The position numbers and the translations under genes were made by a program. A stretch of 64,000 nt of DNA from Actinocorallia sp. API 0066 (GTDB lineage Bacteria > Actinomycetota > Actinomycetes > Streptosporangiales > Streptosporangiaceae): positions 62,001 to 126,000 of the forward strand of contig NZ_JAJLQY010000001.1 in NCBI RefSeq assembly GCF_020991275.1, read 5' to 3'. Below, piece after piece: positions 11,040 through 19,583 of the stretch (the stretch's first letter is position 1; each line of letters begins with the position of its first letter). The notes beneath the pieces were generated by a model. That model was not told the DNA's origin. It ran no database searches and worked only from the letters and a program-made list of their open reading frames with translations.

Positions 11040-11555
11040 TCAGGACGGGCGGTAGTCGAAGTGGGGGACGGCCCGTGCCCAGGCCGCCTCAACGGTGTCC
11101 CGGCAGAACGCGACGATGTCGGGATCGTCGGAGTACTGGATCTCGGGGATGGTCCCGTGCTCTCCGTCGTGGACGTTGAAGATCACCGCGCTGCCGTCGA
11201 GGACGAAGCAGTCGTTTCCGGGCAGCGGGGTCGCGGAGACCTCGCGGCGGGGAAGCCACCGGAGCCGCTCGCCTGCCTTGACCGAGGGTCCGCAGGTCGC
11301 GACGGCCATGCGCTGGTACTCCGACAGCGGCTCGGAGACCACGCGAACTCGCCGGAACGTCCAGCCCGTCGCCGACTGCGCCTCGACGAACTCGGCGTAC
11401 TCCCGCGCGGACCGCTCGACGTACTCGCGATCCCCGCCCCGCCACGCGTCGAGCAGGTGGCGGTCCATCCCGTACTCGTCCAGCAGCTCGACCTTCAGCA
11501 GGTCGCGGACGGAGCGGATGAGCGTCGCGCGCCGCTCAGCCGAGATCGACTCCAT
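11040..11555 (-). CDS. DUF6879 family protein (first of three)
   Basis: A 171-residue protein of the DUF6879 family, whose members are commonly found beside XRE/DUF397 genes in actinomycetes. The recognisable core is W-T-F-R-R-V-R-V-V-S-E-P-L-S-E-Y-Q-R near residue 67, R-W-L-P-R near 100, D-C-F-V-L-D near 112 and a C-terminal A-W-A-R-A-V-P-H near 160. The ATG at 11555 has GAAGGAG seven bases upstream. It lies 80 bp downstream of the last lanthipeptide gene on the same strand, so it may be read through from that operon. No biochemical role is known to me. Confidence 0.75.
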   Translation of the reverse strand: MESISAERRATLIRSVRDLLKVELLDEYGMDRHLLDAWRGGDREYVERSAREYAEFVEAQSATGWTFRRVRVVSEPLSEYQRMAVATCGPSVKAGERLRWLPRREVSATPLPGNDCFVLDGSAVIFNVHDGEHGTIPEIQYSDDPDIVAFCRDTVEAAWARAVPHFDYRPS

Positions 11556-11635
11556 GGTGCTCCTTCACGTAGTGGAAGCGGGACAGCAGGGTGTACGTGA
11601 TCGCCGACCAGTCGTGTGTCGATGGGTTTGTTGGG

Positions 11636-12421
11636 TTATGGCCAGCTGCTCGTGCTGGTGCGGGTGGTGTTGTCGGTGGGGGGTTTGAGGGTGGCTTGGG
11701 TGGCGGCTTGGGCTAGGGCGGCTTGGGTTGTGGCGGGGAGGCCGAGGCGGTTCCAGTGGAAGATGATGTGTTGGGAGATGACGGCGCGGATGCCTCGGGT
11801 GAGGTGGCCGGTTTCGCGGAGTTGTTGGAGTGTGGTGCCGGTGTGCTGGAAGGAGGTGAGCCAGGCGTTGTCGGTGAGGTCGGGGTGGGGGTGGCCTAGG
11901 AGGAGGTGGCGGACGTTGTGGGTGTAGGACGCCCAGACGTTCGGGGTGGGTGGTTCGGGTGTCAGGGGGGCGCGTTGTTCGGCGATTTTGGCCCAGACGT
12001 CGCCTTGTTCGTTGAGGTCGAGTCCGGCGGCGCGCATGAGGGCTGTGCAGAGGATGAGGGAGCGTTCTTGTCGGTCGTTGGGGTTGTCGGCCAGGTAGGT
12101 GAGGAGGTGGTGGCTGTCGTGGTGGAAGAGGGTGTGTGCGGCGGTCATGCTGTGGGGGCCGCCGAAGGCGTGGGTTTCCGGTTCGTAGATGTCGGGGGTC
12201 CAGGCGTGCTTGTTGGTGAAGATGTCTTGTGGGGGGTGGGGCGGACCGAGGTAGCGGATGCGCCAGCGGCCTTTGCGGATGAACCACCAAGAGGTGATGG
12301 TGCCGGTGGACTCGGCTGCGGGTAGCACGGTGGACAGGTGCTGGACGGCTGCGTGTTCGCGTTCGCGCGGGGTCTGCCCGGGATAGGTGATGTTCACCTG
12401 CTTCCAGCGGGTTTCGTCCAT
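11636..12421 (-). CDS. Thiopeptide-type bacteriocin biosynthesis domain protein (stand-alone elimination-domain-like)
   Basis: A 261-residue protein resembling the SpaB_C / thiopeptide-type domain, which in split LanB systems eliminates glutamate from glutamylated Ser/Thr. Support: the start W-K-Q-V-N-I-T-Y-P, the W-W-F-I-R-K-G-R-W-R-I-R-Y strand pair near residue 44, F-G-G-P-H-S near 87, the S-L-I-L-C-T-A-L-M helix near 120 and H-I-I-F-H-W-N-R-L-G near 220. These are the usual landmarks of the domain. The ATG at 12421 has AAAGGAAA upstream and lies 16 bp after lanC. Because the neighbouring LanB already carries its own C-terminal domain of this type, the second copy is notable. Codons ending in A are enriched here. 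Confidence 0.82.
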   Translation of the reverse strand: MDETRWKQVNITYPGQTPREREHAAVQHLSTVLPAAESTGTITSWWFIRKGRWRIRYLGPPHPPQDIFTNKHAWTPDIYEPETHAFGGPHSMTAAHTLFHHDSHHLLTYLADNPNDRQERSLILCTALMRAAGLDLNEQGDVWAKIAEQRAPLTPEPPTPNVWASYTHNVRHLLLGHPHPDLTDNAWLTSFQHTGTTLQQLRETGHLTRGIRAVISQHIIFHWNRLGLPATTQAALAQAATQATLKPPTDNTTRTSTSSWP

Positions 12422-12437
12422 GCGCGGTTTCCTTTGG

Positions 12438-13514
12438 TCAGCAGAGCAGGAGGCAGGCGTCCCATGCGGTCGTGGTCTCAGCGGTGGCCAGAGTGGTACC
12501 TGCCTTGCCTTCGAGGAGCCCGGTGGGTTCGTCTGTCGGGAAAGCGGTCGTGTGGTGGAGGCGGGCGAGGTGTTGCAGTGGGATCGGGTGGAGGGCGTCG
12601 GCGGCGATCCGTCGGGCGGTGGTGAGGAGTCCGGCGGTGCCGTGGCACAGGCTGCGGTCGGTGAAGAGGCTTGTTTGGGCGGGGTCGGTCACGCAGGCCG
12701 TGAACGCGGTTTCGGCGGTGTGTTGGCGGTCGGGGTCGGTGAGGGCGCGGGCGGCGAGTTGCTGGGCGCGCGCGATGCCGGGGGTGCCGTAGCACCAGGA
12801 CGGGCGGAGCGGGCCGGTCTGGGCGGGGCGGGCGGTTTTGAGGTCGGCGCGGGTGACGGTTTGGGGCCACCATGCCGCGCCGTTGTCGGTGTGCTGCCGC
12901 CAGGTGTCCAGCCAGGTGAGGATGCGTTGGATGGCGTCGGTGTGGCCGTGGACGTGGGTGCCGTCGAGGTGGGTGAGGGCCAGGAGGGCGAGCGGCCCGG
13001 TGATGCCGTGGGCGAGGCCGTGGTTGCCGTGGCCGTCTGCGGGGGCGGGGTGGTCGCGGCGTGGGCCGTTGCGGCACCACCAGCCGGGGAGGGGTCCGAG
13101 GGGTTCGGTGAGGCGGACGAGGTAGGTCAGGACGTCGCGGAGCAGGTCGGTGCGGCCGACGCGGCGTAGGGCGACGCCGAGGCCGGTCAGTCCTCGGATC
13201 AGGTCGTACTCGGCGTAGTCGGGCCGCTGGCGTCGGTCGATGCGGCGGTGCGCGGCGTCCAGGCGTTGCCGGGTCACGTCCACGGTTCCGTCGATGGCGG
13301 TGGCCTTGGCGCGGGCGAGGCCGGGGTGGTCGCTGGCGGCGAGGACGAACGCGAGGGCGGGGGCACCGTAGTAGAGGCTCGCGCCCTCGGTGACGCTCAC
13401 GCCTTCGGCGACGGCCAGTTCGAGTGGCGCGAACGCGCGCTGATGGTCGCCGGTCGCCAGGTGGAGGAGAGCGATCCCGGCTGCTCCGTCCGCGAGGGAC
13501 TGTCCCGCTGTCAT
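12438..13514 (-). CDS. lanC: Lanthionine synthetase C family protein (LanC cyclase)
   Basis: LanC is the zinc cyclase that adds cysteine thiols to dehydroalanine or dehydrobutyrine to close (methyl)lanthionine rings. The 358-residue protein has the three zinc ligands of the family: Cys241 in W-C-Y-G-T-P-G, Cys290 and His291 in L-C-H-G-T-A-G. A further conserved histidine is in G-L-A-H-G-I at residue 169. Double-glycine-type helical repeats (alpha/alpha barrel) fill the rest. Its ATG overlaps the LanB stop by four bases (ATGA), so the dehydratase and cyclase are coupled. The length is a little below that of NisC, with the short N-terminus seen in actinomycete members. Confidence 0.93.
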   Translation of the reverse strand: MTAGQSLADGAAGIALLHLATGDHQRAFAPLELAVAEGVSVTEGASLYYGAPALAFVLAASDHPGLARAKATAIDGTVDVTRQRLDAAHRRIDRRQRPDYAEYDLIRGLTGLGVALRRVGRTDLLRDVLTYLVRLTEPLGPLPGWWCRNGPRRDHPAPADGHGNHGLAHGITGPLALLALTHLDGTHVHGHTDAIQRILTWLDTWRQHTDNGAAWWPQTVTRADLKTARPAQTGPLRPSWCYGTPGIARAQQLAARALTDPDRQHTAETAFTACVTDPAQTSLFTDRSLCHGTAGLLTTARRIAADALHPIPLQHLARLHHTTAFPTDEPTGLLEGKAGTTLATAETTTAWDACLLLC

Positions 13515-16231
13515 GGCGCAGCCTGGGCGAGGCGGGTAAGGGCGACGGCGCGGGCCAGACGCAAGCAGTGCCGTTCGGAGGCGGTGTCCACCCCGATCAT
13601 GCGTGCGTGGTGCAGGTGCAGCAGGTTCGACAGGACGTGGTCGAGATCAAGGCCGTCCGCCTCAGCCAGGCCCCGGTAGGCGGCCAGCGCCGTCGAGAGG
13701 TCGGCGTCGCCGTAGGGGCGGCGGGAACGGGTGAGCTGGGCGGGGTCGAGGCGGGGCCCGCTGCGGCGGGGCGCGTGGTGGGCGAGCCAGGCGGGGCCGT
13801 CGCCGGTGAAGCCGTGCGCGATGGCGAGCATCCCGGCGGCGGTGGCGGCTTGCCGGTCGCCCGACAGGTGCCGCAGGACGTTGCGGGAGTCGGCGGCGAA
13901 GACCGTCTCGGCGGCGGCGAGGGTCGGGCCGGTTCCGTGGCGTGTGTCGGGCCGGTAGGTGGTCAGCAGGTAGTCGGTCAGGAGGCCCGCGTCGTGCAGG
14001 TGCTCGGCCCAGACGGCGAGGTCACGGGCGGCGTCGGCGAACGCGACGGTGTGCAGCGGAACGCGGAGCCGCAGGTGGGGTTCGGGGTCGGGGTAACGCA
14101 GGAACCACCAGCCGCAGGGGAGACGGGGACGGCCGGTGAGGATGTCGTCGGCCCGGCCGAACAAGCGGGCGTCCAGCCAAGGAGACGGCCCCGGCCGGTG
14201 CTGCAGGACGCTGGCGGGACGACACGGCCGGGCGGCGCGGGGCACGGTGGACGGTCGCGTGTGGGCGAGCGTGAGAAGGAGCTCGACGGGTCGTCCATCG
14301 GACCACCCCGACCCTCCAGGGGCTTCGGTGAGGACCGCGTTCGGGTGCCGGTCGAGGTGGCTGCGCAGAAGCGCGAGATGGGCGTTCTCGTCCAGATCGA
14401 GGCGTATCCGGATGTCGTCGTCGCCGAGGAACACCTCACGCGGCAGCCGGTACCGATCGCGATACCGGGCCCAGGCCGTCTCCCACTCCTGCCACGTCGC
14501 CCTCCGGCCGGGGAACGCGGTCGCGGGGATCAGCCAACGCGCCGGGTGCAGGATCGACCGGCCGCGCCGGACACGCGGGAGGAACGGCAGGCGGCTGGCG
14601 TGGCCCCAGTCGAACCGGGTGCACGGGGCCAGGAACGCCGTCCAGATCTCGGTGAGGAAGCGGACGAGGGGCTGCTGCCCGGCGGGTAGGAGCACGCTGT
14701 TGAACAGCAACGGCTCCACCGGTCGCCCTGTCGTGTGGGAGACGAGCCACAGCCGCACACCGTCGCCGACGACAGCGAGGTCCTCGACCCGCACGGCCGG
14801 ATCGGGATGGAACTCCCCAACGGGCAGGACGGGAAGCAGCTCCGGGGCGCGGGCGAGGGCGGCGAGCCGGAGATCCAGCGGAGGCGCGGCCACCTGGACG
14901 GCTTGCGCGTCGGGCGACGCGGAGGGCAGATCCCGGTAGACGCGCTGGAAACGGTCGAGGTCGGCGGGGTCCAGGAGGTGCAGGAACCGGGCGGCGGAGA
15001 CCCCGGCGTGCCGGGCCGCGCTCACGACCGTCAAGGTGAACTCACCGCGATCAAGGTCATGGACAGTGCCCGCCGCGAGGGTGAAGCGGAGTTCGGTGTG
15101 GGGGATCGGTGGCCGGTCGTCGTCGCCGCGCAGCGTGTTGATCGTCGTGTCGTCAAGGAGAGTCTCGGCCGCGTCGGCCAGCGCGGCCTCCTGCGCGAGG
15201 GAGAACAGGACGGAGTCGCGCGTCGTGTGCGGTGCCGGGGGCCTGCGACGGGTCGAGGTCCGGTATCCGGCCGGGTACCCGAGAACACGGAGGACTTCGC
15301 GGACGGGCACGGCGGCGCCGGGACCCCAGCGTTCGAGGAACGCCCGGTGGTAGTCGGCCGCCCAGGCGAAGCGCGGCGCGATCGCGACCAGAGCGGAAGC
15401 CGCGTCCTGTGCCTCGCCGACCACCGATGGAGGAAGCGTCACCGCACAGTCCAGGCGAAGATCAACGGGCGTCTGGGCGGAAGGCTCGGGAAGGTCCCCG
15501 GAACAGGTGCGGGCGCGGGAATCCGTGATGATCGTTCTCGTTCGGACGGCCGTGCGGAGTGTCCCCGCTTGCACAAGGTCGGCCAGCAGCACCTCGGCAG
15601 CCGCGAGATCGTCGTCGGGCTCTTTGGCGACCAGTTCGGCCAGCTTGACGAACGGAATGGGCGACCGGGCGGCTTCGAGTGCCGTCTCTATCGGGCGGGT
15701 CAGTTTGATCTCGGCGTCCCAGACCCGGCCGTCTTCGATGCGGGCGCAGGGCGTCACCCACGCCCCGCCTCGTCGGAACCCGAGTGAGTCGGTCATGACC
15801 GAGGTGGTGCGCAGGGCCGGGAGGTCTTCGGTGGTTGCCCGGGGTCCGCCCGGGTGGGGAACCGCGTGATGCCTGTCGTCCCAACGGAACGCGGCGTGTG
15901 TGCCGAGGCGACCGGATGCCGCTCCGGCGAAGCGTCCGAACGGTGTCGCCCGTGTCGTCCATCGCAGTACGTAGCGCACCGTCGCCTCGGTCAGACGGCG
16001 CAGCCTGTGCGCGTCGAGAGTCTCGCCGCCCAGTACCCGCGTGATCTGGGCGCTGAGGTCCGGCGAGGCGAGGCTGACGGCCTTCGCGAACTCGGGCGAC
16101 TCCCATACCTCCCGCAGCCACGCCACCCAGGAGGCAGGTCGGTCGCCGGTGAGGTCGGGCCAGGCGGGCAGGGTGAGCCCTTGGGGGTAGGCGGCGGCTC
16201 TGATCAGCGTGGCGTCGACGGCTCGGAACAT
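13511..16231 (-). CDS. lanB: Lantibiotic dehydratase (LanB, full length)
   Basis: LanB dehydrates Ser and Thr of the precursor, using glutamyl-tRNA to glutamylate the side chain and then eliminating glutamate. The 906 residues comprise the glutamylation region (about 1-620, beginning M-F-R-A-V-D-A-T-L-I-R, with T-R-A-T-P-F-G-R-F-A-G near 95) and a C-terminal SpaB_C/elimination domain (about 655-900, with L-P-C-G-W-W-F-L-R-Y and L-R-L-R). The ATG at 16231 has GGAGCGAG upstream. It follows the precursor gene after a hairpin and overlaps lanC. The presence of both domains in one chain makes this a complete class I dehydratase. Confidence 0.93.
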   Translation of the reverse strand: MFRAVDATLIRAAAYPQGLTLPAWPDLTGDRPASWVAWLREVWESPEFAKAVSLASPDLSAQITRVLGGETLDAHRLRRLTEATVRYVLRWTTRATPFGRFAGAASGRLGTHAAFRWDDRHHAVPHPGGPRATTEDLPALRTTSVMTDSLGFRRGGAWVTPCARIEDGRVWDAEIKLTRPIETALEAARSPIPFVKLAELVAKEPDDDLAAAEVLLADLVQAGTLRTAVRTRTIITDSRARTCSGDLPEPSAQTPVDLRLDCAVTLPPSVVGEAQDAASALVAIAPRFAWAADYHRAFLERWGPGAAVPVREVLRVLGYPAGYRTSTRRRPPAPHTTRDSVLFSLAQEAALADAAETLLDDTTINTLRGDDDRPPIPHTELRFTLAAGTVHDLDRGEFTLTVVSAARHAGVSAARFLHLLDPADLDRFQRVYRDLPSASPDAQAVQVAAPPLDLRLAALARAPELLPVLPVGEFHPDPAVRVEDLAVVGDGVRLWLVSHTTGRPVEPLLFNSVLLPAGQQPLVRFLTEIWTAFLAPCTRFDWGHASRLPFLPRVRRGRSILHPARWLIPATAFPGRRATWQEWETAWARYRDRYRLPREVFLGDDDIRIRLDLDENAHLALLRSHLDRHPNAVLTEAPGGSGWSDGRPVELLLTLAHTRPSTVPRAARPCRPASVLQHRPGPSPWLDARLFGRADDILTGRPRLPCGWWFLRYPDPEPHLRLRVPLHTVAFADAARDLAVWAEHLHDAGLLTDYLLTTYRPDTRHGTGPTLAAAETVFAADSRNVLRHLSGDRQAATAAGMLAIAHGFTGDGPAWLAHHAPRRSGPRLDPAQLTRSRRPYGDADLSTALAAYRGLAEADGLDLDHVLSNLLHLHHARMIGVDTASERHCLRLARAVALTRLAQAAP

Positions 16232-16257
16232 GTCTCGCTCCGGGGGGCGGCGGGTGA

Positions 16258-16288
16258 AGGGTCCGGCCGCTGGTAGAGGCCGGACCCT
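16258..16288 (-). terminator. Attenuator-like hairpin between precursor gene and lanB
   Basis: A perfect 11-bp inverted repeat, arms AGGGTCCGGCC (16258-16268) and GGCCGGACCCT (16278-16288), with a nine-base loop. It lies in the 84-bp gap after the precursor stop and 26 bp before the lanB start. No U-run follows. A partial terminator in this position is common in lanthipeptide operons and would keep precursor mRNA in excess over enzyme mRNA; that role is inference. Confidence 0.7.
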
Positions 16289-16315
16289 CTCGGACGGGAC
16301 TTTGCTCAGCCTGTT

Positions 16316-16444
16316 TCAGGCGCCTGAACAGGCGTCGGAGTCAGTGTCGCCGCTGCCGCAGTTGTCGTCGGTGATGGTGGCGTAGGCGTTGGCGGCGGGT
16401 CCGGCATCGACCAGGCGCAGGTTCAGTTCGTACTCGGGGCTCAT
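16316..16444 (-). CDS. lanA: FxLD-family lanthipeptide precursor peptide
   Basis: A 42-residue peptide, too short for ordinary gene calling. It has a leader with Y-E-L-N-L-R-L-V (residues 5-12) where the family usually shows F-x-L-D followed by a V/L-rich stretch, and a core T-D-D-N-C-G-S from residue 25. Cys29 and Cys39 can form two thioether rings; candidates for dehydration are Thr23, Thr25, Ser31, Thr34, Ser36 and Ser40. The core is very acidic (Asp26, 27, 33, 35, 37). Its ATG overlaps the methyltransferase stop (ATGA) and LanB/LanC follow. The gene context makes the call strong, although Tyr and Asn replace the name-giving Phe and Asp. Confidence 0.85.
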   Translation of the reverse strand: MSPEYELNLRLVDAGPAANAYATITDDNCGSGDTDSDACSGA

Positions 16445-17691
16445 GCGGCGTTTCCCTTCTTGTTGGGGGTGAAGGTCAGGACGAGGCGGCTGTGCCGCTT
16501 GTCCAGCACCATTCCGTTCGGCAGGTCGCCGTCCGGGGCGTGCGCGGGAAGGACGGTCAGGACGGGCGCGGGGTTGCCCGCGTCCAGCCAGGCGCGCATG
16601 TGCTCGACCATCCGTCCGGCCGCCACCTCGGCCTGCGGGCCGTGGGCGTAGGAACCGAGGTCGAAGACCCTGTCGGTCCAGGACAGCTTGGACCGGTAGG
16701 CGAGTGTGCCGTCTTGGAGGGTGGCGGGCGTGCCGTACTGCCAGGACGGCGCCACGGTCCCGGCCTCGATGGCCTCGCTCTGCGCTGTCAGAACGACGAG
16801 CCCCTCCCGCAGCCGGGTCGCCAGCCAGAGGTTGAGGTCGGACAGGTTCGTGCGGGGCGGCAGGGCCACCCCGGCCCACGCCTCCGCGCGGGGCAGGTCG
16901 AGGAGACCTTCGATCGCGGCGGGGTCGATGTGCTGGCCTTCGTCCAGCCGCAGGTGAACCCCGTCGGCGATGTCGAGGTGCCGGATCTCGGAGGCTCCGT
17001 CACCCTGCATCGACACGAAGCCGCACAGGCGGTGGCTCTGGCTCACGAGGCGGTCTCCCTCCCGGCGCAGCGCCCACGAGCGGGTCATCCCGAACGTCCG
17101 CAACGGCACGACGAGGACGCCGCCTTCGGTGAGCTGATCCCGCCAAGCGGGCGGCACGTCCCATGCCCCGACGGTGACGATGATCAGGTCGTAACGGCGG
17201 CCCGGCTCGACCGGGTGCTCGGCGTCCGCGCGGAGCACGGTGACGTCGTCGTAGCCCGCCGCCGCAAGGCACTTCGAGGCCCGGTCGATGACGTCCGGGT
17301 CGATGTCCACCGTCGTGACGGACCCGGCGGCACCGACCAACTCCCGCAGCAGCGAGGCGTTGTACCCACCCGAGCCGATCTCCAGGACCGAACGCCCGGT
17401 CAGCCCGCCAAGCGCGTCGGCGGCCTGACCGAGCATCTCGGCGATGAGGAACGGCGCCGACACCGAACTGAGGCTCTCCCCACTGGGCAGCCTCTTGGTG
17501 ACGACAGCGGTGTTCTCGTACGCCTCCTCCAGCGGCAGCCCCGGCGTGAACAGCTCACGCGGCACGGTCCGCATGGCCGTTTCCACCTCCGGCCGCAACA
17601 CCAAGCCCTTCGCCTGGTGATCGGCCGCAAGCCGATCCACCATCGCGTCCCGCAGTCCCTCACCACTCAGAGTGCCGATGCTCACCAACAT
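16441..17691 (-). CDS. Protein-L-isoaspartate-methyltransferase-like enzyme of the FxLD lanthipeptide system
   Basis: A 416-residue SAM-dependent enzyme related to PIMT. The S-S-V-S-A-P-F-L-I-A-E-M block at residues 76-87 corresponds to the PIMT S-x-S-A-P substrate loop, and V-L-E-I-G-S-G-G-Y-N at 102-111 is SAM motif I, followed by T-V-D-I-D-P near 128. About 200 extra C-terminal residues distinguish it from repair PIMT and match the subfamily named 'methyltransferase, FxLD system'. Known lanthipeptide PIMT homologues such as OlvSA methylate an Asp and drive isoaspartate formation; the same is inferred here. The ATG at 17691 has AAGGGGGA immediately upstream. It is the first gene of the operon and overlaps the precursor. 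Confidence 0.88.
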   Translation of the reverse strand: MLVSIGTLSGEGLRDAMVDRLAADHQAKGLVLRPEVETAMRTVPRELFTPGLPLEEAYENTAVVTKRLPSGESLSSVSAPFLIAEMLGQAADALGGLTGRSVLEIGSGGYNASLLRELVGAAGSVTTVDIDPDVIDRASKCLAAAGYDDVTVLRADAEHPVEPGRRYDLIIVTVGAWDVPPAWRDQLTEGGVLVVPLRTFGMTRSWALRREGDRLVSQSHRLCGFVSMQGDGASEIRHLDIADGVHLRLDEGQHIDPAAIEGLLDLPRAEAWAGVALPPRTNLSDLNLWLATRLREGLVVLTAQSEAIEAGTVAPSWQYGTPATLQDGTLAYRSKLSWTDRVFDLGSYAHGPQAEVAAGRMVEHMRAWLDAGNPAPVLTVLPAHAPDGDLPNGMVLDKRHSRLVLTFTPNKKGNAA

Positions 17692-17779
17692 TCCCCCTTC
17701 GACGTTCCTCCGCCACCGCGATCACCGCCTCGCGCGTGCTCCACCACCCTCCCGTGCCCCGGCGCGTGGTGCCAGGAAT

Positions 17780-17800
17780 TTAGCTACCTTTAGCAGCTAA
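17780..17800. promoter_or_regulatory. Inverted repeat in the divergent promoter of the lanthipeptide operon and XRE regulator
   Basis: Arms TTAGCT (17780-17785) and AGCTAA (17795-17800) are separated by nine bases that themselves contain TTTAGC. This AT-rich site stands out in a GC-rich gap between the methyltransferase start (17691, minus) and the XRE gene (17899, plus), and is a good operator candidate for the adjacent regulator. Confidence 0.5.
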
Positions 17801-17898
17801 GGAAATGGCACTTCCCGCCTGGTCAGGCAGGAAATTGGATGAGTCGGACGCTGCTCGTCACGGCTAGCGAAGACGGAAGCCGGGGGCATGCGTACGTG

Positions 17899-18801
17899 AT
17901 GGCCAGTTCGTCCTCGTCGTCGGCCCAGGCCGCCCGTGAGCGCCTGGGAGCCCGCCTGCGCGAGCTGCGGACAGGGGCGGGGCTGTCAGGGGTGGAGTTC
18001 GCACGACGGGCTGGCTGGTCTGCCTCGGCCGTCGTGTCGCAGGTGGAGAAGGGCCGCCGCTCCATCACCGCCGATCACGTGCGGCTGTGGTGCTCGCTGA
18101 CCGGCGCGTCGCCCGAGTTGACGGCCGAGCTGCTCGCCGAGCAGGCGAACATGGCGGGAATCTGGCTCTCGCTCCGCGAACATGGGCGCGGCCTTGCCTT
18201 GAACGCCCGCCAGAAACTCACCATCGGCGACTCGATGTCCCGCGTCACGCTTGTCCGCACCTACCAGACCAAGGTCATTCCCGGGTTGCTGCAGACGCCC
18301 GGCTACATGGAGCAGGTTCTCCGGGGGGTCCGCAGAGACCGCCGCATCGAGCCCGACGACATCGCCGAGGCCCTCGCCGAACGGCTGGGACGGCAGCGGA
18401 ATCTACGCCGCCATGGAGCCCGGTTCGTCTTCCTCCTGGAGGAGACCGTCCTGCGGTTCCGCCAGTTCGGGCCGGACGTCCACCGTGAACAGCTCCTGCA
18501 CCTCCTGGAGGTCATGCGGCTCCCGACGGTGTTCGTGGCCGTCATCCCGATGGACACCGACCGGCGAGGCGTGCGGCCACGCGAGTCCTTCGACATCTCG
18601 ACCTTCCCCGACCACGAACACGTCCAGGTGGAGCTGCTGTCCGGGCTGCTCACCCTCACCCATCCCGAAGAACTCGCCATGTACCGGCAGGCGTGGGACG
18701 CCCTCATGTCCCGCGCCGTCCACGGCGACGGCGTCCGCGCCTTGATCGGACGGGCGTTGGAGGCGCTTGACGGCGAGGCCGAAGGCGGGCGATCGTCGTA
18801 G
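17899..18801 (+). CDS. XRE-family regulator with DUF5753 domain
   Basis: A 300-residue regulator with an N-terminal helix-turn-helix (about residues 12-70: L-G-A-R-L-R-E-L-R, F-A-R-R-A-G-W-S-A-S-A-V-V-S-Q-V-E-K-G-R-R) and a C-terminal DUF5753 ligand- or partner-binding domain (about 100-285: Y-Q-T-K-V-I-P-G-L-L-Q-T near 127). I choose ATG 17899 because the conserved M-A-S-S-S-S-S start lies there; ATG 17839 would add 20 unconserved residues. It diverges from the FxLD methyltransferase across an inverted repeat and is followed without a gap by a DUF6879 gene, so control of the lanthipeptide operon is a reasonable guess. Confidence 0.88.
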   Translation: MASSSSSSAQAARERLGARLRELRTGAGLSGVEFARRAGWSASAVVSQVEKGRRSITADHVRLWCSLTGASPELTAELLAEQANMAGIWLSLREHGRGLALNARQKLTIGDSMSRVTLVRTYQTKVIPGLLQTPGYMEQVLRGVRRDRRIEPDDIAEALAERLGRQRNLRRHGARFVFLLEETVLRFRQFGPDVHREQLLHLLEVMRLPTVFVAVIPMDTDRRGVRPRESFDISTFPDHEHVQVELLSGLLTLTHPEELAMYRQAWDALMSRAVHGDGVRALIGRALEALDGEAEGGRSS

Positions 18802-19583
18802 TGCAACTCTCAGCCCGGCTACAAGGAGGCCCGACACCCGTGGTCGAGTTCATCGGTGAAGACCCCGACTCCGACCAGCACGAATGCCCGGCCGTGTGGG
18901 CCGAGCCCGGAGGGATGTACATCCGGGGCAAGCGCGTCGATCCGGCCATCAGCGAGCGGTTGAGCCGGGACGTCGCCAAGGGCGAGGACGAAGAGGACGT
19001 CTGGGTTCCGGATCGCCTCTTCCCGATCGTCCGTGAAGCCCTTGACGGAACGTTCGAGCCCGGCCGCGAGGGCAAGGGCCAGCCTTCGTTCGACAGGCTC
19101 GTCGCGAACGCCAAACGGTCCATCATCCGGCTGGAGATGCGGGACGCCTACGACCCCTCCCAGGCCAGCAGCTTCGCCGAATGGAAGCAGACGGGCGGCC
19201 TGTCCAGCCACCAGTGGGGCGACTGGGCCGCCATCGTCGGCGACGCCGTCAACCGGGGTGTGACCTGGCGGCGCGTCCGCGTCATCTCCAAGCCCATGTC
19301 GGAGTACATGAGGTGGGAACACGCCGTCACCGACATGAACGTCTCCTTCGGAGAGGACATCCGCTGGCTATGGCGACACGACGCCGCAGACCTGCTCCTC
19401 CCCGCTGCCGACTGCTGGGTCTTCGACTCCCGCATCGTCCGCTGGAACTTCCAACGCGGCGACGACACCAACCCCCGCGTCTACACCTTCAGCTCCGACC
19501 CACGCATCACCCGAGACATCGCAGGCGCCTTCACCGCCGCCTGGGACCGAGCCACCCCACACACGGAGTTCAAACCCGAGTAA
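18801..19583 (+). CDS. DUF6879 family protein fused to a small N-terminal partner domain (second of three)
   Basis: A 260-residue protein in two parts. Residues about 1-85 hold E-C-P-A-V-W near 28, R-G-K-R-V-D near 42 and E-D-V-W-V-P near 65; this resembles the free-standing 90-residue product at 25148-25420. Residues about 95-260 are a DUF6879 domain with W-R-R-V-R-V-I-S-K-P-M-S-E-Y near 153, R-W-L-W-R near 188 and A-W-D-R-A-T-P-H at the end. The GTG start shares one base with the XRE stop (TAGTG), so the pair is coupled. A terminator follows. The function is unknown; the pairing with XRE suggests a regulatory accessory. Confidence 0.78.
   Translation: MQLSARLQGGPTPVVEFIGEDPDSDQHECPAVWAEPGGMYIRGKRVDPAISERLSRDVAKGEDEEDVWVPDRLFPIVREALDGTFEPGREGKGQPSFDRLVANAKRSIIRLEMRDAYDPSQASSFAEWKQTGGLSSHQWGDWAAIVGDAVNRGVTWRRVRVISKPMSEYMRWEHAVTDMNVSFGEDIRWLWRHDAADLLLPAADCWVFDSRIVRWNFQRGDDTNPRVYTFSSDPRITRDIAGAFTAAWDRATPHTEFKPE

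Follow-up and report, generated by a model that had tools for sequence, protein, structure and literature searches.

A lanthipeptide sub-group that appears to retain a syn-type glutamyl lyase without the lyase's known ring

Introduction

What does a syn-type glutamyl lyase do in a lanthipeptide cluster whose precursor lacks a counterpart of the cysteine that closes this lyase's known ring? The question is raised by a five-gene operon of Actinocorallia sp. API 0066, which lies on the minus strand of a 64,000-nucleotide stretch of contig NZ_JAJLQY010000001.1 (positions 62,001 to 126,000). We refer to the whole stretch as the window, and all coordinates below are positions within it. In transcription order, the operon encodes a methyltransferase resembling protein isoaspartyl methyltransferases (PIMT-like), a precursor peptide, the dehydratase LanB, the cyclase LanC and a stand-alone glutamyl lyase. 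The precursor belongs to a sub-group, here called SG, which, judged by its sequences, retains an intact syn-type lyase without the ring known for that lyase. That is, SG peptides seem to have lost one ring and yet kept the enzyme known for this ring in a relative. Clusters resembling coi and olv are common in actinobacteria, and a clade with a syn-lyase but without its known ring represents a natural experiment.

The operon and its precursor

Directly readable from the DNA are the five genes and their families, the signatures of their active sites and the degree to which positions of the peptide core are conserved. The genes are, in order of transcription:

16441–17691, minus strand: PIMT-like O-methyltransferase (LanSA/FxlM type), first gene of the operon, 416 residues (TIGR04364; PF01135)
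16316–16444, minus strand: precursor peptide, 42 residues (TIGR04363; conservation within SG)
13511–16231, minus strand: LanB dehydratase, 906 residues, with a glutamylation domain and a C-terminal lyase domain that carries the anti-lyase signature (PF04738, PF14028)
12438–13514, minus strand: LanC cyclase, 358 residues (PF05147)
11636–12421, minus strand: stand-alone glutamyl lyase, 261 residues, with the syn-lyase signature (TIGR03891; PF14028)

The start codon (ATG) of the precursor overlaps the methyltransferase stop by 4 bases, and the LanC and LanB genes overlap by 4 bases as well. An initial annotation, made from the sequence alone, had proposed an FxLD-type lanthipeptide operon with an isoaspartyl-methyltransferase-like enzyme, LanB and LanC, and NCBIfam and Pfam scores confirmed this assignment. 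Against the NCBIfam models, the methyltransferase scored 439.3 bits with TIGR04364 (FxLD-system methyltransferase, cut-off 320), the precursor 41 bits with TIGR04363 (FxLD family lanthipeptide, cut-off 30) and the stand-alone lyase 179.5 bits with TIGR03891, an elimination-domain family (cut-off 48.45). LanB gave matches to MibB, MadB and NisB. While the methyltransferase, precursor, LanB and LanC had been listed correctly, the fifth gene, the lyase at 11636–12421, had been omitted from the annotation although it lies inside the annotated range, and this omission matters for the predicted stereochemistry.

The precursor (16316–16444, minus strand) reads MSPEYELNLRLVDAGPAANAYATITDDNCGSGDTDSDACSGA. 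As had been described, its 42 residues include YELN in the leader, TDDNCGS in the core, and two Cys and five Asp within the last 21 residues. Its calculated monoisotopic mass before modification is 4249.80. Both FxLD models (TIGR04363 and TIGR04364) score above their curated cut-offs in the window, but the YELN leader and the two core Cys set the precursor apart from the family. A literal F-x-L-D is absent from the leader, where YELN stands; the TIGR04363 model does not require it. LanB, LanC and a PIMT homologue occur together in one cluster, as in 'lanthimiditides', and TDDNC conforms to the lanthimiditide core motif TxDxC with its conserved Asp. The cluster very probably produces a short peptide with rings, of a kind already known from actinobacteria, a class I lanthipeptide with a PIMT-like methyltransferase like those of olv, coi and the 'lanthimiditides'.

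A distinct sub-group of two-ring precursors

To place the precursor among its relatives, we collected loci by their likeness to the window precursor or methyltransferase or to the FxLD models, and SG is over-sampled because of this. An alignment of the window precursor with three relatives matched 37 of 345 genomes of the order at E ≤0.001 (18 below 1e-20, the three source genomes included) and 30 of 394 genomes of a class sample (12 below 1e-20, again including the three source genomes). Named genomes were scanned with an alignment of methyltransferases; of 395 relatives the best 80 were retained, which gave 79 loci. Together with the window and 68 others, these made 148 longer stretches, some of which represent the same locus. 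Many loci are close relatives or were fetched twice, and identical precursors were counted once. Open reading frames (ORFs) longer than 120 residues, with an unknown residue or with a score below 15 were removed before precursors were counted; one canonical precursor (L154) was retained despite a broken-looking tail. This left 107 distinct precursors, of which 52 (including the window) belong to SG, defined by the core C-G-S-G-[NDE]-T, 10 to a DCTxDxC group and 45 to a canonical form whose cores often read G-S-T-C-x-S-A-C.

The pattern T-[DSN]-D-x-C-G-S-G-[NDE]-T-xxx-A-C fits 51 of the 52 SG cores. In all 51 the putative target Asp is preceded by Thr and followed by Cys; the Asp is also kept in the 52nd as printed. 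In the numbering of the window precursor, the positions conserved within SG are Thr25, Asp27, Cys29, Ser31, Thr34 and Cys39. The window core holds two Cys, compared with three or four in 43 of the 45 canonical precursors collected. The initial annotation had staked its reading on finding such precursors in related genomes, and 52 distinct ones were collected, which leaves that reading unrefuted; this number (window included), with one core pattern, and the TIGR04363 score rule out a chance ORF. It had also called the precursor atypical. This applies to the comparison with the canonical form, whereas within its own sub-group the precursor looks normal: no other motif is as frequent as YELN in SG leaders (11 of 52), and the target Asp is most often followed by Asn (22 of 52).

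Among the hosts of SG loci are Sinosporangium album, Sphaerisporangium, Actinomadura, Frankia, Parafrankia, Micromonospora and Salinispora. When 95 methyltransferases were placed in a tree (a quick, unrooted LG+G4 tree supported by the Shimodaira–Hasegawa-like approximate likelihood ratio test, SH-aLRT, only), all 47 SG entries fell on one side of a branch with an SH-aLRT value of 99, and the window methyltransferase paired with that of Sinosporangium album (86% identity). Wherever at least 6.5 kb of downstream sequence was available (43 of 43 SG loci), the methyltransferase lay upstream and the lyase in the same cassette. By these comparisons, SG is a coherent and distinct clade of predicted two-ring lanthipeptides. 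We did not find this clade described in the text of the literature searched, listed titles and abstract openings on Frankia and Salinispora lanthipeptides included, figures and supplements being outside the search. SG may equal one of the Walker families I 1–4, whose sequence logos, given in a figure, were outside the comparison. A 2010 report describes O-methyltransferases in clusters of Frankia (PMC3091789).

Some additional observations concern the surroundings of the sub-group. Methyltransferases are present at the DCTxDxC loci L209, L212, L213, L218, L219, L221 and L227 and place beside SG on the tree. Where enough sequence was available, a stand-alone lyase accompanied them (7 of 7 loci). 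At some SG loci (L165, L123, L167, L171 and L172), a second methyltransferase of the same family adjoins the cassette. The Actinocorallia genome itself encodes three more FxLD precursors above the cut-off (G000 C42, C23 and C12; loci L036, L037 and L038). Each adjoins a methyltransferase, LanB, LanC and a lyase, with a coi-like lyase-methyltransferase fusion in one case and a separate lyase in two.

Two glutamyl lyases with different signatures

The closest comparison for the set of enzymes is the coi cluster of Streptomyces coelicolor A3(2) (CoiA1, CoiB, CoiC, CoiSA; PMC9486935). It has the same parts as the window: a precursor, a full-length LanB with the anti signature, LanC, a PIMT-like methyltransferase and a second lyase with the syn signature. 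In coi this lyase is fused to the methyltransferase, whereas it is a separate protein in the window. PMC9486935 describes anti-elimination by CoiB and assigns syn-elimination to the elimination domain CoiSA(ED); it already lists syn-lyases that stand alone next to full-length LanBs. In the syn type, Lys takes the place of the Tyr of anti types, and a hydrophobic residue that of NisB Arg826 (PMC9486935, PMC9011353).

The stand-alone lyase of the window has Lys50 (within WFIRKGRWRIR) and, aligned by eye, Ala85 at the place of NisB Arg826. Both places are invariant among 22 aligned proteins. Of 47 distinct SG stand-alone lyases, all have the Lys. At the Arg826 place, 43 have Ala and 2 have Thr; the remaining 2 escaped the search pattern but read Ala as printed. 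The spacing from the Lys to the Arg pair is one residue shorter in SG lyases than in most canonical ones, and L040 of the DCTxDxC group shares it. The LanB of the window keeps the Tyr and Arg of the anti-lyase signature, as do most SG LanB lyase domains (44 of 46 for each residue). Of these 46 domains, 43 contain an LLH[LI]HH motif, which we matched by visual alignment to the catalytic His region of NisB. By signature residues, with Ala85 equated to Arg826 by eye, the window has the arrangement of coi, a second lyase of the syn type beside an anti-type LanB.

A sequence search for a solved relative of the stand-alone lyase gave none at E 1; a fold search did find matches. The AlphaFold2 model (mean predicted local distance difference test, pLDDT, 87) resembles MadB, MibB and NisB, but also the aza-cyclases PbtD and TbtD. 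Template modelling scores (TM-scores, by query length) were 0.58–0.69 for the LanB lyase domains and 0.56–0.64 for the aza-cyclases. The fold alone cannot decide between lyase and aza-cyclase because the model matches both kinds. The protein might be a [4+2] aza-cyclase, a pyridine synthase of the thiopeptide or pyritide type, whose product would contain a pyridine-based macrocycle, a possibility raised for such proteins by Walker et al. (PMC7268733). We regard this as very improbable: the protein retains both the Lys and the non-Arg residue that mark a syn-lyase, the related domain CoiSA(ED) was shown to be a lyase (PMC9486935), and SG cores offer only two invariant or nearly invariant Ser positions, 31 and 36, the second of which is Thr in 2 of 51 cores.

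A proposed pathway

We consider it likely that the locus is a five-gene class I lanthipeptide operon in which LanB, two lyases, LanC and the methyltransferase act as follows. From the genes we infer the chemical steps, the ring pairing, the stereochemistry and the cleavage of the leader, and we predict the product, its ring pattern and its isoaspartate. LanB would glutamylate Thr and Ser residues of the core from Glu-tRNA, and its C-terminal domain would anti-eliminate glutamate at some sites. The stand-alone lyase would syn-eliminate at another site, the two geometries probably being opposite. LanC would then close a ring from Thr25 to Cys29 around Asp27 and most likely a second one from Thr34 to Cys39. 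After cyclisation, the PIMT-like enzyme would methylate the ring-borne Asp27, and the ester would collapse to an aspartimide and, by hydrolysis, yield mostly isoaspartate. The proposal of the initial annotation that the Asp near the first Cys is the probable target is supported by its invariance.

The last steps are modelled on the olv cluster of Streptomyces olivaceus NRRL B-3009 (OlvA, OlvB, OlvC, OlvSA; PMC13001092, PMC9486935), which has LanB, LanC and methyltransferase as in the window. There, the methyltransferase turns a ring Asp into aspartimide and isoaspartate, as we predict for the window. OlvSA modifies only the cyclised peptide, giving aspartimide and then 70–80% isoaspartate (PMC13001092). 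As described in these sources, olv differs in having no second lyase and more rings, while the window has the stand-alone lyase and only two Cys.

A ring that seems to be missing

CoiA1 contains three rings: Thr43–Cys47 (LL), Thr50–Cys55 (DL) and Cys51–Thr57, the latter of D-allo-L configuration and formed via the syn-lyase (PMC9486935). Two Thr-Cys pairs with spacings of 4 and 5 are common to coi and the window, Thr25–Cys29 corresponding to Thr43–Cys47 and Thr34–Cys39 to Thr50–Cys55 of mCoiA1. The Cys51–Thr57 pair, however, is absent from the window core, which has no counterpart of Cys51.

We compared the presence of the lyase with that of an [ST]-Cys pair like Thr50-Cys51 in loci with at least 6.5 kb of downstream sequence. 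The lyase was present in 43 of 43 SG, 7 of 7 DCTxDxC and 38 of 43 canonical loci. Among these lyase-bearing loci, the [ST]-Cys pair occurred in 37 of 38 canonical, none of 43 SG and 2 of 7 DCTxDxC loci. A third Cys is found in 6 of the 43 SG cores; it may be relevant in those six, though not in the window core.

If the known ring is gone, the lyase would act at another Thr of the window peptide, with LanC adapted to it. Our tentative reading, which we hold with somewhat less than even confidence, is that the SG syn-lyase has been redirected and sets the geometry at Thr23, Thr25 or Thr34. This would give allo-methyllanthionine at a new place, perhaps L-allo-L, or an unclosed (E)-dehydrobutyrine ((E)-Dhb), while the PIMT-like enzyme would act on the invariant ring Asp whether Asn, Gly, Asp, Glu or Lys follows. 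With the methyltransferase working whatever residue comes after the Asp, target choice would rest on the ring and not on an Asp-Gly motif. According to PMC9011353, the L-allo-L isomer had not been reported in 2022. With two Cys and 42 residues, the precursor would be simple enough to serve as a substrate for studying which Thr is chosen by a syn-lyase and how this choice affects ring stereochemistry.

Several points weigh against the pathway or the redirected lyase. The second ring could begin at Ser31 or at Ser36 (a position that is Thr in 2 of 51 SG cores) in place of Thr34. In L200, the sole SG exception to the core pattern, the second Cys is displaced further on, with the Asp kept. Asn after the target, like Asp, Glu or Lys in relatives, may slow aspartimide formation. 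All five lyase-less canonical loci also have the [ST]-Cys pair, so that pair and lyase are not strictly tied. Finally, (E)-Dhb at position 43 or 50 does not seem to be cyclised by CoiC (PMC9486935); these positions are the equivalents of Thr25 and Thr34, which argues against the syn-lyase serving either Thr in that way here.

The last two points also favour the main rival explanation, in which the stand-alone lyase is a helper that finishes glutamate elimination left by the LanB domain, and only ordinary DL or LL rings are formed: the lyase cannot be predicted from the [ST]-Cys pair, and (E)-Dhb is seemingly not cyclised by CoiC at either ring position common to the window and CoiA1. In the coi system, moreover, no more than a single dehydration, along with glutamylated intermediates, was seen with CoiB and CoiC alone, and CoiSA(ED) was able to eliminate at all three Thr (PMC9486935). 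However, the syn-lyase signature is fully kept in SG (Lys in 47 of 47; Ala or Thr in 45 of 47, with Ala as printed in the other two). The LanB lyase signature is kept as well, and no elimination deficit of LanB is therefore visible. We judge a mere helper role rather unlikely, and prefer the redirected lyase.

The residue after the target aspartate

In coi the target Asp is followed by Gly, in the window by Asn. According to Lee et al., most precursors have the motif TxDGC (PMC10787088). Residues previously seen after the conserved Asp include Thr, Asn and Asp, Gly being typical but not required (PMC13001092). Among our 52 SG precursors, this residue is Asn in 22, Gly in 16, Asp in 8, Glu in 5 and Lys in 1; among the 45 canonical ones it is Gly in 26, Asn in 15, Thr in 3 and Glu in 1. 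Asp-Asn as a peculiarity of this genome is ruled out by these Asn counts in both groups. On the methyltransferase tree, the site after the target requires at least 16 changes within SG while the Asp itself is unchanged. Because the target Asp is invariant and the next residue varies, Asp-Asn is normal within SG. Such free variation allows a direct test of whether the methyltransferase reads the ring or the neighbouring residue, and of how the proportions of methyl ester, aspartimide and isoaspartate depend on that neighbour. Two loci, L206 (Frankia nepalensis) and L207 (Protofrankia coriariae), have Glu or Lys after the target (TSDEC, TSDKC) and are hard cases for aspartimide formation.

An ester or aspartimide may persist longer when Asn rather than Gly follows the target. 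With Asn after Asp27, the pathway might halt or linger at the methyl ester or aspartimide, which would then be the biologically relevant form rather than isoaspartate. This explanation is compatible with the pathway above up to that step, and we consider it possible, although doubtful. It is consistent with the lower share of Gly after the target in SG than in canonical precursors (16 of 52 versus 26 of 45; Fisher P=0.008, a value that ignores kinship), with the repeated change of the site next to a constant Asp, and with lihuanodin, where Thr follows the target and the aspartimide is comparatively stable (PMC13001092). But the 16 SG cores with Gly indicate that SG chemistry need not depend on its absence. 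The Gly share also depends on sampling: it was 4 of 32 in the first SG set alone, and a second set, rich in Micromonospora, raised it.

Expression and flanking genes

Three further features adjoin the operon:

16257–16289, minus strand: G+C-rich hairpin between the precursor gene and lanB (fold z-score; covarying pairs)
17839–18801, plus strand: regulator with helix-turn-helix (HTH) and DUF5753 domains, divergent from the operon (PF13560, PF19054)
18801–19583, plus strand: DUF6879 protein after the regulator, with an uncertain link to the operon (PF21806)

In the window, the region 16225–16318 has a fold z-score of -2.55. The hairpin is kept after the precursor in SG relatives; across 18 chosen loci, both partners have changed in 7 of 12 consensus pairs. 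It is probably an attenuator of the usual kind between lanA and lanB. Rfam gave no match at the gathering threshold over 11400–18000. The precursor had no match in a plasmid collection at E 0.01, and a sequence search for solved relatives of an FxLD precursor returned weak, unrelated matches only. Of 33 SG loci in the first set, 21 have a precursor start that overlaps the methyltransferase stop (by one base in 19, by four in 2), while in the second set the loci of Micromonospora and Salinispora have a short gap and no overlap.

The HTH-DUF5753 gene possibly regulates the operon, a weak link because genes of this type are abundant in actinobacteria. A second DUF6879 ORF lies at 11040–11555 on the minus strand of the window, and HTH-DUF5753 and DUF6879 genes also flank the relatives L033, L040, L085, L086 and L088–L090. 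We clustered the flanking ORFs of 51 SG loci and inspected a single example of every family that was present at 5 or more loci by eye; several look like wrong-frame shadows, and the following is weak evidence. No dedicated protease was recognised among these families. The commonest real-looking family is an XRE-type regulator with a median length of 461 residues, found at 25 of the 51 loci, and a permease-like ORF recurs at 5 of the 51.

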